Source: Verrucomicrobiales bacterium (lineage in GTDB: Bacteria; Verrucomicrobiota; Verrucomicrobiia; Verrucomicrobiales; V1-33). From it: a stretch of DNA of 43,817 bases. The DNA lies in assembly GCA_028293125.1 (NCBI GenBank), contig JAQGPJ010000097.1, forward strand, positions 1 through 43,817, written 5' to 3'. Shown here one piece after another: positions 27,275 to 34,794 of the stretch. The notes under the pieces are model-generated. The model had not been told where the DNA came from. It made no database searches and was given only the letters and a program-made list of their open reading frames with translations. Every line of letters begins with the position of its first letter. Positions within the stretch are counted from its first letter, which is position 1. Position numbers and translations under genes: made by a program.

Positions 27275-27405
27275 GGAACGGGCTGGCAAAAACCGCTGCC
27301 GGACCGGTTTGCCATAACCTTCAGGCTCAAAACTGCATAATTATGCCGCATAAAGTCACCAAATGTTGCTTGCGGAGGGGCAAGCGGTTTCCACGTTGGC
27401 CGCGC

Positions 27406-28304
27406 ATGCACACCGGCGCGGGGATTGCCGCTTTTCCAACTTCTGAAATCTTTGACAGCCATCCGGGTTTGGCGACCCGGCTGCGGGGCATCCGGCATGT
27501 GGCCTTGGATATGGACGGGACGATTTACCGGGGTGGGCAGCTTTTTGAATTCACCAACCGTTTTCTGGACCAGCTGACAGAGTGGGGCATCGGCTGGACC
27601 TTCCTGACCAACAACTCCTCAAAAAGCACCGAGGAGTACCAAGCCCATCTGCGGAAACTGGGCGTCAGGCCGGGTGTAGGGGAGGGGTGCGTGTTTATCT
27701 CCACTCACGCCACCATCGAATATCTGCGCCAACGGCACCCGAAGGTGCGGCGGCTGTATGTGCTGGGATCGCCGGGAATGAAGACGGAGCTGGCCCTGGC
27801 GGCTTTTGAGATCAATAGAAAGTCGGCGGAGGATGAACCGGAGGCGGTCATTGTTGGGTTCGATCCCGCGATGACCTACGCCTCGCTGTGCCGCGCCGCG
27901 TGGTGGATCCGGAAAGGGAAGTGGTTTGTGGCCTCGCATCCGGACACTGTCTGTCCACCGACGGACCCACCGTGCTGGTGGACTGCGGAGCCATATGCAC
28001 AGCGCTCACCGCCGCCACCGGTCGGCATCCTGACGCCGTGGCCGGCAAGCCGCACCCGCGCATGCTGCAGGGACTGATGCAGCGTCTGGGGCTGATGCCG
28101 GAGCAGATGGCCATGGCCGGGGACCGCCTCAATACGGATGTCGAAATGGCCCGCCGCGCCGGAGGGCTGGGAGTGCTGGTGCTCACGGGCGAGGCTGCTG
28201 CGGAGGATGCTGCCCAAGCCCAGCCGCTTCCGGACTTGGTGGTGCCGGATCTGGCGGCATTCGGAGAGCTGCTGCGGGAGGCCCGCGGAGCCCGTTTTTC
28301 CTGA
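27406..28304 (+). pseudogene. HAD-superfamily (NagD/AraL-like) phosphatase, frameshifted
   Basis: From an ATG at 27406 the first frame reads H-V-A-L-D-M-D-G-T-I-Y-R-G, then F-L-T-N-N-S-S-K-S-T-E-E-Y, V-I-V-G-F-D, and A-S-H-P-D-T-V-C-P, the NagD-type HAD plan. At 27955-27957 it goes out of register, and the next frame continues T-D-G-P-T-V-L-V-D-C-G, then G-K-P-H-P-R-M-L and A-G-D-R-L-N-T-D-V-E-M-A, ending at 28304. Joining the two needs one extra base, so a single base is missing. The complete enzyme would remove phosphate from small sugar or polyol phosphates; its position next to a G1P dehydrogenase-like gene recalls the AraL-AraM pair of Bacillus, so a glycerol-phosphate role is inferred. 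Natural loss and a sequencing error cannot be told apart here. Confidence 0.8.
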
Positions 28305-28406
28305 CTGTTCATCACTGTCCCCATCATGGGGTTTTGGCGGAGCCGCCGCCCCGCTGAGCACGCCGGAGACCGCCAACCCCTTGGAAAATGACTGAAAATC
28401 CCTGTT

Positions 28407-29421
28407 ATGAACTCCCCACGCGCTCCCCGCTACACCGACGAGCAGCTGCGCCTCGCCGCGCGGCTTTATTATGTGGATGGACTCGGCCAGGCTGAGGTCG
28501 CGCAGTTCACCCGCATCTCGCAGACCAAGGTCTCCCGTCTGCTGGCCCTGGCCAGGGAGCGGGGCATTGTGAAAATCTCCGTCGCCGAATACGAGTCCCG
28601 CAGTTTCCTGCTGGAGGATAAGCTCCGCTCCCTGCTTGGTCTGGGGACGGTGGCGGTGATCCGCACCCTGCCGGGAGCCACCAGCGGTGACGCCCGCCGA
28701 GCCGTGGGGCACTTCGGGGCCTCCATCGCGGCCTCGCTGATTGCGCCGGGCAGTGTGGTGGCCATCTCCGGCGGACGCACCATGCGGGAACTGGTGCAGA
28801 ATCTGCCGACGGACAAAAAAGCCGGCCTGACCGTGGTCCAGACCATGGGCAGCATCGATTCCTCCGTGGCTCCGGTGGATGCCCTGGAGCTGGGCCGGGT
28901 GATGGCCCGGCGCTGCGACGGCCTGTTCCAGTCGCTCAACAGCCCGGCATTTGTCCCGGACAAACAGACCCGCGACGCCTTTCTGAATCTGACGCAGATC
29001 CGCTCCGTCTGGCAGCAGCTGAACCGGGCCAAACTCCATCTTTGTGGAGCGCGGCATTCTCAGTCCCGACGAGCTGGCGCAACTGCGGGCTGGCGGAGCA
29101 GTGGGTGAAATCTGCGGTCGCTTCTTCAACGCCGAGGGACAGGAATGCGATACGCCGTGGCGCGACCGGGTGGTCGGCATCGAACTGGAGCAGCTGCGCA
29201 CCATTCCCCAGGTCATCGGCATCGTGGCCGGCAGCAACCGTTCCCGGGCCATCGCGGCCGCTATAAGTGGAGGGCTGCTGAAGTCCCTGATCATCGACGA
29301 GGGCGGGGCCAACGCCCTGCCTTTCCCATCCTTTGCCGCCGGCCACAGCACGGCCCCGGCTTCCACCAACCCCAAATCCCGGTCCGGCTCCGTCACTGCC
29401 GCTGCCGCTGCCCTTTCATGA
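28407..29421 (+). pseudogene. SorC/DeoR-like sugar-binding regulator, internal deletion and frameshift
   Basis: The first frame (28407 onwards) has an N-terminal HTH, A-A-R-L-Y-Y-V-D-G-L-G-Q-A-E-V-A, then Q-T-K-V-S-R-L-L, and the start of the sugar-binding domain with A-I-S-G-G-R-T-M-R-E and D-A-L-E-L-G-R. At about 29028-29033 it breaks, and the adjacent frame resumes at N-S-I-F-V-E-R-G-I-L-S-P-D-E-L, continuing G-A-V-G-E-I-C-G-R-F-F and I-G-I-V-A-G to the stop at 29421. In intact members a V-G-I-G strand of about a dozen residues lies between these two parts and is not found, so the lesion removed a few tens of bases and shifted the frame. It would have sensed a phosphorylated sugar or polyol and controlled the genes beside it. 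Its stop overlaps the GDPD start. Confidence 0.8.
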
Positions 29422-30392
29422 AACGCTGCCGCCTTGTCACCTTTTTCCCTTTCATCGCCGCCGCTGTGCTCCCCGCAGGCGCTTTCCCTGCCAAGGCGGA
29501 GTCCCCGGCCCCGGCTGCCACAGTGAAAAGCTCTTGGAATGTGCGTGATCACGTGCCGCTTCAGGACTTTATCATTCAGAGCCACCGCAGTGCCGGTGAA
29601 CTGGCGGAGGAGAACACGCTGGAGGCTTTTGAACTGGGCTGGTCGCTGGGGACCATCCCGGAGGCGGATGTCCGCACCACCAAAGACGGCGTGATCGTGG
29701 CTTTTCACGACAATGATTTCTCCCGCGTGGTGAAGGATGTGCCGGACGGTCTGAAAAAGAAGGGCGTGGCCGATGTGGGTTATGAGGATCTGATGCACTT
29801 GGATGTCGGCTCGTGGAAGGGCGACGCCTTCAAGGGAAGGCGCGTGTGCCGGATGAAGAACATCTATGAACGCATGGCCGGACATCCGGAGCGGCGGCTC
29901 TATCTGGATTTCAAGAATGTGGATCTGCGGCAGCTGGGGGCGGAAATCAAAGCGGCGGGTGTGGAGAAACAGGTTATACTTGCCTCTTCCAAACACCCCA
30001 TCCTGCGGGAATGGCGGGAGCTGGTGCCTGAATCCGGCACCCTGCTGTGGATCAGCGGCACCCAGGAGGACAAACGCAAAGCCATGGAGGCCGCGCGGGC
30101 CACGGGATTCGCCGGCATCACCCAGATTCAGATCCATGTGCGCCTGCCCGGCGATGCCAAGGATGTCCAGCCCGGCGAGCCCTTCTCACCCAGCCGCGCC
30201 TTCCTGGCGGAACTGAGTTCGGAACTGGCCCGGCGCGGCATTCTGTTCCAGACCCTGCCCTGCGGCGTGACCGATCCCGCCATTTATCAGCAGCTGCTGG
30301 ACGCCGGTTTGGCCTCCTTCGCCACGGATCACCCGAAGGTGACGGTGGAAGCCGTGCGCAGCTATTACGAAGCGGTCAAACCAAAGCCCTGA
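29418..30392 (+). CDS. Exported glycerophosphodiester phosphodiesterase
   Basis: The ATG at 29418 gives 324 residues with a signal peptide (M-K-R-C-R-L-V-T-F-F-P-F-I-A ... A-F-P-A-K-A); the longer frame upstream is the shadow of the regulator gene. The GDPD TIM-barrel motifs are all there: Q-S-H-R-S-A-G, E-E-N-T-L-E-A-F, E-A-D-V-R-T-T-K-D-G with the metal-binding Glu and Asp, and A-F-H-D-N-D with the catalytic His. The enzyme splits glycerophosphodiesters to an alcohol and glycerol phosphate in the periplasm. It is the only gene of its cluster that looks fully intact. It overlaps the regulator by 4 bases and is followed 28 bp later by the fusion ORF. Confidence 0.92.
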   Translation: MKRCRLVTFFPFIAAAVLPAGAFPAKAESPAPAATVKSSWNVRDHVPLQDFIIQSHRSAGELAEENTLEAFELGWSLGTIPEADVRTTKDGVIVAFHDNDFSRVVKDVPDGLKKKGVADVGYEDLMHLDVGSWKGDAFKGRRVCRMKNIYERMAGHPERRLYLDFKNVDLRQLGAEIKAAGVEKQVILASSKHPILREWRELVPESGTLLWISGTQEDKRKAMEAARATGFAGITQIQIHVRLPGDAKDVQPGEPFSPSRAFLAELSSELARRGILFQTLPCGVTDPAIYQQLLDAGLASFATDHPKVTVEAVRSYYEAVKPKP

Positions 30393-30420: not shown

Positions 30421-31689
30421 ATGATTCCCTCCCGCCTTGTTCTCTCCTCCGCCCAGGCTTTGGAGGCCGCGCGTGAAACGCAGGTGTTGGAGATCGGCTC
30501 CGGCATCCTGTCCCAAGTGCCGGAGATTTTCCGCGGGCAGTTTGGAAACCGGCCCGCGGTCATGGTTACCGATCCCAACACCTTCAGCGCCGCCGGCAGC
30601 CTGATCCGGCAGGCGTTTGCCGATGCCGGGCATCTCATGCGGGAGCCGTTTCTGTTTCACGATCCGGATCTTTATGCGGAGCGCCGTTTTGTGGATGAGC
30701 TCCGCACGGCTTTGGCGGGTCATGACGCGGTGCCGGTGGCCGTGGGAGCGGGCACGCTCAATGACCTGACCAAGCTGGCCTCCCATGAAGCCGGACACCC
30801 CTATCTCTGTGTGGCCACTGCGGCCTTCATGGATGGTTACACGGCTTACGGAGCCTCCATCACGCACCGGGGCTCCAAGCAGACCTTTGACTGTTCGGCC
30901 CCGGTGGCGGTGGTGGCGGATCTGGCGGTCATCGCCGCTGCTCCCCCGGCCATGAACGCCTGGGGGTATGCGGATCTGCTGGCCAAGGTCACGGCGGGGG
31001 CGGACTGGATCGTGGCGGATTTTCTGGGTATGGAGCCCATTGAGCCATTGTCGTGGACATCGTGCAGGGCGGTTGGCGATCCCGACGGCATCCGCCGGGC
31101 TGATCCCGATGCCATCGCCAGGCTGGTGGAGGGACTGATGCTGGGGGGCTTCGCCATGCAGGCCAAGGGTATGAAGCTGGAGCACAGCGGCTGGATGGTG
31201 GCCGGATTCGAGATCTCCGGCGTCGTCGGCATGCTGGCTGCGGGCTGGATCACGGACCGTGTGTTCGGCGGGCGGGGAGCCTGGACCTGCCTTGTTTACA
31301 TGGCCCTGGCCGGAGCGGCGATGTTCTGTTTTTGGAAAACTCCGGTGGGCTACGGGGCACTCAGTGCCGCACTGCTGTGTGCCGCAGGCTTTTTCATCTA
31401 TGGCCCGCAGGCGCTGATCGGCATTGCCGTGGCCAATCTGGCCACCAAGCGGGCCGCCGCCGGTTTCACGGGGATTTTCGGTTATGCCAGCACGCTTGTC
31501 TTCGGCGTGGGCCTTGGCTGGCTGGTGGAGAAGCACGGATGGAACGCCGCCTTCGACGCCCTGATCCTCTGCAGCGCCATCGGCACCGCGCTTTTTGCGC
31601 TTTCATGGAGGGCCAGGGTGCACGGCTACGCTGAGCATGAAGCATCGGCGCGGGCGGGAGCAGGATGCCGGCAAAGACTGGGAGAATGA
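30421..31689 (+). pseudogene. Junction ORF: G1P dehydrogenase N-half joined to organophosphate transporter C-half
   Basis: The 422-residue frame is open, but two unrelated families meet inside it. Residues 1 to about 248 match the N-terminal part of sn-glycerol-1-phosphate dehydrogenases (AraM/EgsA): A-V-G-A-G-T-L-N-D-L-T-K, A-A-F-M-D-G-Y-T-A-Y-G-A-S with the first metal ligand Asp, and G-G-F-A-M-Q-A. The remaining ligands in the S-G-A-E-H segment are absent. From about 249 (K-G-M-K-L-E-H-S-G-W-M, DNA near 31163-31171) the sequence is the second half of a GlpT/UhpT-type (OPA) transporter, with D-R-V-F-G-G-R-G and I-Y-G-P-Q-A-L-I-G and five or six membrane helices. Neither half can work alone, so an in-frame deletion fusing two neighbouring genes is the best reading; an assembly collapse is the alternative. 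Confidence 0.8.
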
Positions 31690-31944: not shown

Positions 31945-34794
31945 TCAGGGCCTGGCCAGACGGTAGAACTTTTTGCCGCTGGCGGGCAGGGGGACCGTCA
32001 AGGGGCTGGCGGCTCCGTTCACAGTGGTCCAAGTGCCGAGATCCGGGCTTTCCTGCAGGATCGCTCCCGCCCCCGCCGACCAAGTGAGAGTGACATTGGA
32101 GCCGCTGACACTCATTGAAATCGAGGCTGTGGCGGGTGGAGTGACCGTGGTCGCGGCCTGCATGTGGGTGGTGATCAGCGACTGCACTCTGGAGCGCAGG
32201 GCGGCCTCATCAAAGGCGGTGGAGAAATCGTGGATAGCGATCTCATCAAGACGACCGGTGAAACCGTTGACTCCGTTGGGCAGGGCGGCGCCCACCAGAA
32301 CACCGGCGAGGCTGACCCTCCAAGCGGTGGTGTTAGTGATGGAATAGACCTGGCCATCCAGATAAATCTCCAGCAGCGGAGCCACGCCGACTGAGTCATT
32401 GCCGTAAAATACATACATCAGGTGGTGCCATTCATTGTCATCAAGCGGGGGGCCTTCAGTGGTGGTGCGGGCCGGCCCGAACAGCTCAAGATAGCCAGCA
32501 TTGAAATTGTAAATCAGCGCCGGGGAATTGTCGCCGCCGGCCACTTCATGATTGCCGAAGTTCACCAGGTAGGTGTTTGGATTGTCCCCCAAGCTTTGAA
32601 TCCAGAGCTCCACCCCAAAAGGGCCGTTCAGTTCGGAAAGATTGGTTTCCAGCAGCTTTTTGAAGTAACTGTTGCCGGCGAAGTCCGCCGTGTAGCCAAG
32701 ATTCAGACCACTGGCGATGGCGGCATGATCCGCGCGGCGGGCGGCGACGCTGGGAACCATGTCATTGGCGCCGGCGGCGGGCGCGGGGTCCAGCGGCATG
32801 AGCTGGACTGCCGGTCCACTGGCCTCATCGAAGTTCCAGTAAAGCAGGGGAGCATCCGCGATCACCTGTTTGGCATAGGCGGTTTGCGCAAGGGGAGGAG
32901 GCGCATTCACGGTCAAAGCCGCAGCGGCGCTGTCCTTGAAGACCTGGCCTGCGGAAACCCGGACTGTGTAGTTGTGGGTGCCCACATCACCAAGCGTCAG
33001 CGCCGGTATGGTGTAGGTGGCCGCCACTTCGCCAACCAGAGCCAGGCCGTCGCGGAACCATTGGAAGATCAGAGGCTCATTGGTGCCGGTGACGGTGGCG
33101 CTGACTGAAAACACCATAGTGTCCCCGATATTGGCCGTTTTTCCCTGTGGCTGGGTGCCGATGGTGACGACCGTTTCGGGGAGAGTGCCGCCCGCTGCCG
33201 TGAAGTGCGCCTCCACCATGGAGGACACTTTGGCGGTCACTGCGGCCTCGTCCGGGAGGTCCGACAGATCGTAAACCGCCAGCTCATCAATACGCCCGGT
33301 GAACTGGTTGGCTCCATTCAGCAGGCCCGCGCCCGCCACCAGACCGCCAAGACTGAGCGGTTTCACCACTGGGCCCACCCGGGGATAGTTCTGCTTGTCG
33401 AAATAAAAATCCAGCCGGTCCGCCACGCCCGATCCGCCCCCGCCGTAATAGACGGCGACCAGATGATGCCAGCCTTGGTCCGCCATGATCGGTCCGCTGA
33501 GCGCAGTGCGGCCTCCGCCTCCGCCAAACAATTCCAGATGCAGGGGTGCTGGCGGATCAAAATTGTAAATCACCGCTGGGGAGTTGTCCCCTGCGGCCGT
33601 ATAGTCGCCGAAATTGAGCAGGTAGGCCCCTCCGTTGTCAGCCTGGCTTTGAAGCCAAAGCTCCACCACATAAGGGCCGGGCAGGGAACTGATCCCGGTG
33701 TCTGAAGTCAGAGGCCGGGCATGGAAGAAACTATTACCCACCAGATCCGCAGCACGGCCCAGCTTCAGCGTGCTGCCGAGTTCCGTATGGGTGGACAGCA
33801 CCGGCGACCCTTCCGGCAACAGCAGATTCTCCCCGGCTGTGGCGTCGGTGAGGGGCATCTGCTGCACCGCGGGTGCCGTGGGATCCGTTTCATCAAAGTT
33901 CCAGTAAAGCAGGGGTGTGTCAGCTTTGACCACCGTGCTGTAGGCGGGGCCGGAGGCCGCCAGGGCGGATGCGCGGTGCCGGGTCACCAAGCCGGAGGCC
34001 CATGCCTCCACCGCCGCCTCATCCGCCAGTTCCTTCGCCTGAAGATCGTACACAGCCAATTCATCGATATTCCCTGTGAAGGCGTTTGCTCCGTTGGGCA
34101 GAGCCGCCCCTACAATCAGGTTGGCAAGGCTCAGCCGGCGGGAAATGCCTTCCAACCCGGTCGCCAAGGTCCCGTCCAGATAAATATCCGTGCGGGCACC
34201 CACGCCATCGGTTCCGTTTCCGTGATAAACGACCAGCACATGATGCCATGCCTGATCGTCAAATCCCGGACCGGAGTCCCCGGTGCGGCCTCCGCCGGCA
34301 CCGTAAAGCTCCAGCACCGGGCCCTGAAAATTGTAAATCAATGCCGGGGAATTGTCACCTCCGGGGCTTAGTCCGAAGTTGGCAAGATAGGTGGGGGTGC
34401 CTGCGCCCCCGCTTTGAATCCACATCTCCAGCGCGTAGGCGCCGGTCAGTTGGGGCTTGCCGGCGCGGAGCGCGGCGGAGGATGCAAAATACCCCCCGCC
34501 GTCCAAGCTGGCGGTGCTGCCCAGCCGGAGACCGCTGCTGATGGATTCGTGGGTGACGCGGCTGGCCGACTGCACCGCCTGCAGATCGTTCTCCGTGGTC
34601 ACGGCAGCCCCGGGAACCTGCTGCACGATGCCATCGCCGATCTCCTCCTGATCAAAATTCCAATAAAATAACGGCTTGTCGGCCAGAATCGCCTGGGAGT
34701 AGGGAGTCTGACTTTGGGCGGAGCCTGCGCTCAGGGCTGCGGCTATAATAAAACCCGGTAGAAGCCGGGGAAGGGGGGAGGATTTTGCGGTCAT
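31945..34794 (-). CDS. Exported protein with three LamG repeats and an Ig-like domain
   Basis: A 949-residue protein with a signal peptide (residues 1 to about 28, ending S-A-Q-S-Q). Three LamG-like repeats start at about 30, 289 and 648. Each opens with A-D-x-P-L-x-Y-W-N-F-D, has D-N-S-P-A-x-I-Y-N-F in the middle and ends with F-T-G-x-(I/L)-D-E-(L/I)-A-(V/I)-(Y/H)-D. An Ig-like domain lies between repeats 2 and 3 (about 540-640; F-Q-W-F-R-D-G). The C-terminus (about 895-949) is a small beta domain ending K-K-F-Y-R-L-A-R-P, common at the end of verrucomicrobial surface proteins. Binding to glycans or cell-surface polymers is likely; no enzyme motif is seen. A strong hairpin sits 34 bases past its stop. 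Confidence 0.87.
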   Translation of the reverse strand: MTAKSSPLPRLLPGFIIAAALSAGSAQSQTPYSQAILADKPLFYWNFDQEEIGDGIVQQVPGAAVTTENDLQAVQSASRVTHESISSGLRLGSTASLDGGGYFASSAALRAGKPQLTGAYALEMWIQSGGAGTPTYLANFGLSPGGDNSPALIYNFQGPVLELYGAGGGRTGDSGPGFDDQAWHHVLVVYHGNGTDGVGARTDIYLDGTLATGLEGISRRLSLANLIVGAALPNGANAFTGNIDELAVYDLQAKELADEAAVEAWASGLVTRHRASALAASGPAYSTVVKADTPLLYWNFDETDPTAPAVQQMPLTDATAGENLLLPEGSPVLSTHTELGSTLKLGRAADLVGNSFFHARPLTSDTGISSLPGPYVVELWLQSQADNGGAYLLNFGDYTAAGDNSPAVIYNFDPPAPLHLELFGGGGGRTALSGPIMADQGWHHLVAVYYGGGGSGVADRLDFYFDKQNYPRVGPVVKPLSLGGLVAGAGLLNGANQFTGRIDELAVYDLSDLPDEAAVTAKVSSMVEAHFTAAGGTLPETVVTIGTQPQGKTANIGDTMVFSVSATVTGTNEPLIFQWFRDGLALVGEVAATYTIPALTLGDVGTHNYTVRVSAGQVFKDSAAAALTVNAPPPLAQTAYAKQVIADAPLLYWNFDEASGPAVQLMPLDPAPAAGANDMVPSVAARRADHAAIASGLNLGYTADFAGNSYFKKLLETNLSELNGPFGVELWIQSLGDNPNTYLVNFGNHEVAGGDNSPALIYNFNAGYLELFGPARTTTEGPPLDDNEWHHLMYVFYGNDSVGVAPLLEIYLDGQVYSITNTTAWRVSLAGVLVGAALPNGVNGFTGRLDEIAIHDFSTAFDEAALRSRVQSLITTHMQAATTVTPPATASISMSVSGSNVTLTWSAGAGAILQESPDLGTWTTVNGAASPLTVPLPASGKKFYRLARP

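Follow-up and report, generated by a model that had tools for sequence, protein, structure and literature searches.

The window analysed here, a 43,817-nt contig sequence of a Verrucomicrobiales bacterium, contains a 422-codon open reading frame (ATG at 30421 to a stop codon ending at 31689, + strand) in which residues 1 to about 247 of a G1P dehydrogenase (G1PDH) are joined in frame to the last ~175 residues of a GlpT-type transporter. We conclude that this locus is very probably an operon pseudogene, the remains of a decayed glycerol-phosphate utilisation operon, in which the fusion arose by one deletion among several. It represents ordinary gene decay and no new kind of protein. The initial annotation recognized the fusion and overlooked the operon-wide damage, namely lesions in the HAD phosphatase gene, in the SorC regulator gene and within both halves of the fused ORF, together with the absence of GlpD.

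The fused ORF is composed of two incomplete proteins

By hmmscan, the fused ORF matched PF13685 over residues 25–175 (E = 2.8e-30), the equivalog G1PDH model PRK00843 over residues 24–250 (model positions 15–241 of 350) and the GlpT model TIGR00712 over residues 246–396 (model positions 281–435 of 440, E = 2.5e-24). The dehydrogenase–transporter fusion annotated at 30421–31689 was thus confirmed by the ORF itself and by the alignment of each half to its family model, which gave an N-terminal piece of G1PDH and a C-terminal piece of GlpT.

The G1PDH half (30421–31161, + strand; residues 1–247) was compared with bacterial G1PDHs of the AraM/EgsA family (PF13685; solved structures 9h4x and 4rfl), sharing 45–62% identity with them and aligning through the NAD-binding part and the motif GYADL, which holds the Asp. 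Unlike these enzymes, it is truncated and lacks both His ligands as well as the helical C-terminal domain: aligned with 13 G1PDH homologues, it matches them as far as GFAMQA, stopping one or two codons ahead of the near-invariant SSRPASGAEHQFSHLW and PSHGxKV, and the model match stops at position 241 of 350. The missing motifs SRPASGAEH and PSHG are those that, from what is established about G1PDH structures, we take to carry the two His metal ligands, so that the metal site, made up of one Asp and two His, is incomplete, in line with the earlier observation that this half stops short of the second and third ligands. The NAD(P)-binding motifs GSGT and AASxDGY are present in altered form (GAGT and AAFMDGY). 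Among 53 columns invariant in 20 homologues, 6 were changed in the G1PDH half, which ranked 1 of 21 (mean of the others, 1.6%; maximum, 7%), and these include substitutions of conserved Ser residues, S110A in GSGT and S136F in AASMDGY. Three of the six changes are accounted for by a local out-of-frame patch at 31054–31077 (+ strand), a second lesion found by alignment and reading of the sequence, in which about −1 and then about −14 nt turned W-[N]IVQGGLREAL into W-TSCRA-V; IVQGG can be read only in another frame (31056–31073).

The transporter half (31162–31689, + strand) was assigned to TM8–12 of a GlpT/OPA-type transporter by profile match, alignments and hydrophobic regions, five of which are left, where five or six helices had been predicted. 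Over residues ~248–405 it shares 40–65% identity with the C-terminal region of the GlpT-like proteins encoded next to G1PDH in relatives. In the alignment it begins at (E)AKG, which in E. coli numbering lies near residue 284, past R269; unlike the twelve-helix, two-half members of the GlpT/organophosphate:Pi antiporter family (1pw4), it has no TM1–7 and therefore neither R45 (TM1) nor R269 (TM7), the established substrate arginines of E. coli GlpT. Three conserved residues are also gone, with an in-frame change of −9 nt at 31444–31464 (+ strand; LATKRA---AAGF versus the conserved LATKRAAATAAGF). Each half accordingly lacks what it needs to work, as had been proposed: both His ligands on one side, TM1–7 and the substrate arginines on the other.

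Relatives carry the two genes as separate tandem neighbours

G1PDH and GlpT were found as separate, same-strand tandem neighbours in nine other Verrucomicrobiota loci (L046, L047, L009, L010 and L077–L081), which supports the view that the two families are normally adjacent and distinct. Complete tandem genes of both types are present in a genome of the same family (G006), in one of the same order (G033) and in two MAG loci (L009 and L010), and in these four loci, to which the measurement of spacing was confined, the points homologous to the two sides of the junction are 1417, 1406, 1691 and 1502 nt apart, respectively. In one further locus (L015) a HAD gene sits between the G1PDH and GlpT-like genes. 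Wherever both families occur close together, the fused query gave two separate genes, the matches ending at residues ~248–268 and resuming at ~243–247 as separate ORFs. No fused ORF was detected in the 94 relatives or the 384 class-level genomes searched, which together make up over 430 distinct genomes, nor in a GTDB scan, and a fusion conserved among relatives, the observation that the initial annotation had set against its own reading, was therefore rejected. Separate tandem genes in relatives and a fusion unique to this locus are what characterizes a deletion-fusion pseudogene.

We also searched the host genome (G000) for the lost parts. The complete G1PDH of G006 matched only through its residues 5–245, at the window, and the complete GlpT of G033 matched with residues 274–438 only, apart from a distant MFS protein (26%). 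Relocation of the missing segment within the genome was thus rejected, as it is absent from all other contigs of G000. Synteny beside the CCA gene is not kept within the family, so that comparison with an empty site in congeners gave no answer; the congener genomes, 68–89% complete, had no matches to SorC and G1PDH.

The junction points to a single deletion, probably at a short shared word

The junction codons read ATG CAG GCC AAG GGT ATG (31156–31173), in which the joined sequence is CAG GCC AAG (31159–31167, + strand) and an AGGCCA-like word at 31160–31165 can be assigned, by comparison with relatives, to either parent gene. In most G1PDH relatives, one or two codons separate ATG CA(G/A) GCN from SSRPASG, and GlpT relatives have (G/C)A(G/A) GCC AAG or GAG GCG AAG at the joining point. 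The joining site was therefore likely a common 5–6-base AGGCC(A) word. The initial suggestion of a short shared word near 31163 remains plausible in this form; its premise that both families can carry A-K-G there does not hold, as the G1PDHs of relatives have no A-K-G at this place and only the transporter side contributes AKG.

A single deletion across the 3′ end of one gene and the 5′ end of the next, as proposed earlier, is supported by the tandem genes of relatives, by a host genome that holds the missing pieces nowhere else and by the absence of the fusion from every relative. It would have removed about 1.4–1.7 kb, from codon ~247 of G1PDH to codon ~280 of the adjacent GlpT gene, probably through slippage or end joining at the 5–6-base word AGGCC/A, and would have left an open frame by chance. 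That the three changes in the fused ORF (the fusion, −15 and −9) are each net in frame is a mild oddity that counts against decay: the chance is about 1 in 27, uncorrected for the choice of this locus as an open one.

Further lesions extend over the operon

The genes upstream of the fused ORF, all on the + strand, were assigned by profile matches and alignments. A HAD-IIA (NagD/AraL-type) phosphatase gene (27343–28304) is split into two ORFs by a −1 frameshift near 27955, and both pieces ranked 1 of 12 for changes at invariant columns. A gene for a SorC/DeoR-type sugar-binding regulator (28407–29421) has a net deletion of ~32 nt near 29034–29038, leaving ORFs 28407–29108 and 29044–29421. Between them, a short gap (28305–28406) occupies the place of glpD, which lies between the HAD and SorC genes in L047 (same gene order) and L048. 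No GlpD remnant was detected in this gap at E 0.5, and GlpD was not found in the host genome by local tblastn, the same query recovering relatives in L048, L078–L080, L082, L089 and L092. The fourth gene (29418–30392) encodes a glycerophosphodiester phosphodiesterase (GDPD) with a signal-peptide-like N-terminus, and no lesion was seen in its frame. Its ORF as listed (29145–30392) is over-long, the first 91 residues being the SorC 3′ end in another frame; the GDPD start is likely ATG 29418, overlapping the SorC stop codon (ATGA). Directly 3′ of the operon, 31945–34794 on the − strand encodes a protein of 949 aa that is probably secreted and has three LamG_3 (concanavalin-like) repeats.

The operon contains at least five indels in 4.3 kb, all of them deletions and several at possible short shared words, a pattern that could also arise if the reads held the full operon and the contig had been collapsed or misjoined at several places. 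We consider such an assembly or sequencing artefact improbable. Assemblers are not normally misled by 5–6-base words, completeness of the genome (120 contigs) is put at 99.1%, none of the other contigs carries the missing parts, and an artefact leaves the substitutions at invariant columns unexplained. Moreover, ParB, DAHP synthase, IspD, NIF3, YqeY, CCA, TypA, a Na/H exchanger and others on the contig match their families in single frames. Among genes with family matches, no split gene was found elsewhere on the 43.8-kb contig (a few ORFs without a Pfam match could not be judged in this way), which makes a general assembly error unlikely, and a contig-wide error was rejected.

The other alternative, in which selection maintains an expressed fusion protein whose degenerate G1PDH-like domain, anchored in the membrane by five helices, has taken on a new, non-enzymatic role, is given very little credence here. 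It would account for a 422-codon frame that has stayed open through several indels and for coding statistics that are still gene-like, and neither SorC nor GDPD stands out at invariant columns; however, it has to be reconciled with a fusion found in no relative, with the loss of both metal-ligand His residues and of the transporter N-half, with an out-of-frame patch inside a conserved stretch and with active-site substitutions. In GlpT, TM8 normally runs into the membrane from the periplasm and leaves the basic DRxFGGRG loop in the cytoplasm, whereas as the first surviving helix behind a cytoplasmic enzyme domain it would enter the membrane reversed. In addition, the regulator and the partner phosphatase are broken. 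With HAD and SorC damaged and GlpD missing, loss of the pathway is far likelier than a functional fusion, and the earlier judgement that a functional membrane-tethered protein is unlikely was strengthened.

We therefore favor decay of the whole operon. The ancestral cluster would have comprised the HAD-IIA phosphatase, probably GlpD, the SorC regulator, a putatively secreted GDPD, the G1P dehydrogenase and the GlpT-type transporter, and we infer that it lost its function and then gathered deletions. If translated, the fused ORF would yield half an enzyme, inactive and attached to five helices, which is likely to be degraded. As a counterpoint, GDPD is open and neither it nor SorC is unusual in constraint, so that either the decay is recent or GDPD remains in use. 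The locus does not differ fundamentally from deletion-fusion pseudogenes in decaying operons, where likewise same-strand neighbours are joined, flanking genes are frameshifted and a partner gene is lost; the present ORF merely remained open.

The intact module recurs in other bacteria

A module of SorC, GDPD, G1PDH, GlpT-like transporter, HAD-IIA phosphatase and GlpD recurs in Verrucomicrobiota (L047, L048, L077–L080 and L092), in varying order and with some members missing in some loci. A similar cluster of GDPD, G1PDH, HAD and GlpT-like genes, with a divergent SorC in two cases, was observed in Candidatus Neomarinimicrobiota (L011, L014 and L015), so the module crosses phyla. A limited literature search, weak evidence of absence, returned no paper linking AraM/G1PDH with GlpT or GDPD.

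The fusion itself matters little: it is a clear case of operon decay, with an in-frame chimera that would mislead automatic annotation into calling a gene. The intact SorC-GDPD-G1PDH-GlpT-HAD-GlpD module is the better lead. In it, an archaeal-type G1P dehydrogenase stands alongside GlpD, which is a G3P dehydrogenase, as well as a GlpT-like transporter and a phosphodiesterase that is probably secreted. This composition suggests that both sn-glycerol-1-phosphate and sn-glycerol-3-phosphate are imported and oxidized, possibly after release from phosphodiesters. Bacterial use of both glycerol-phosphate enantiomers, as suggested by this module, would give G1PDH a testable catabolic role outside lipid synthesis.
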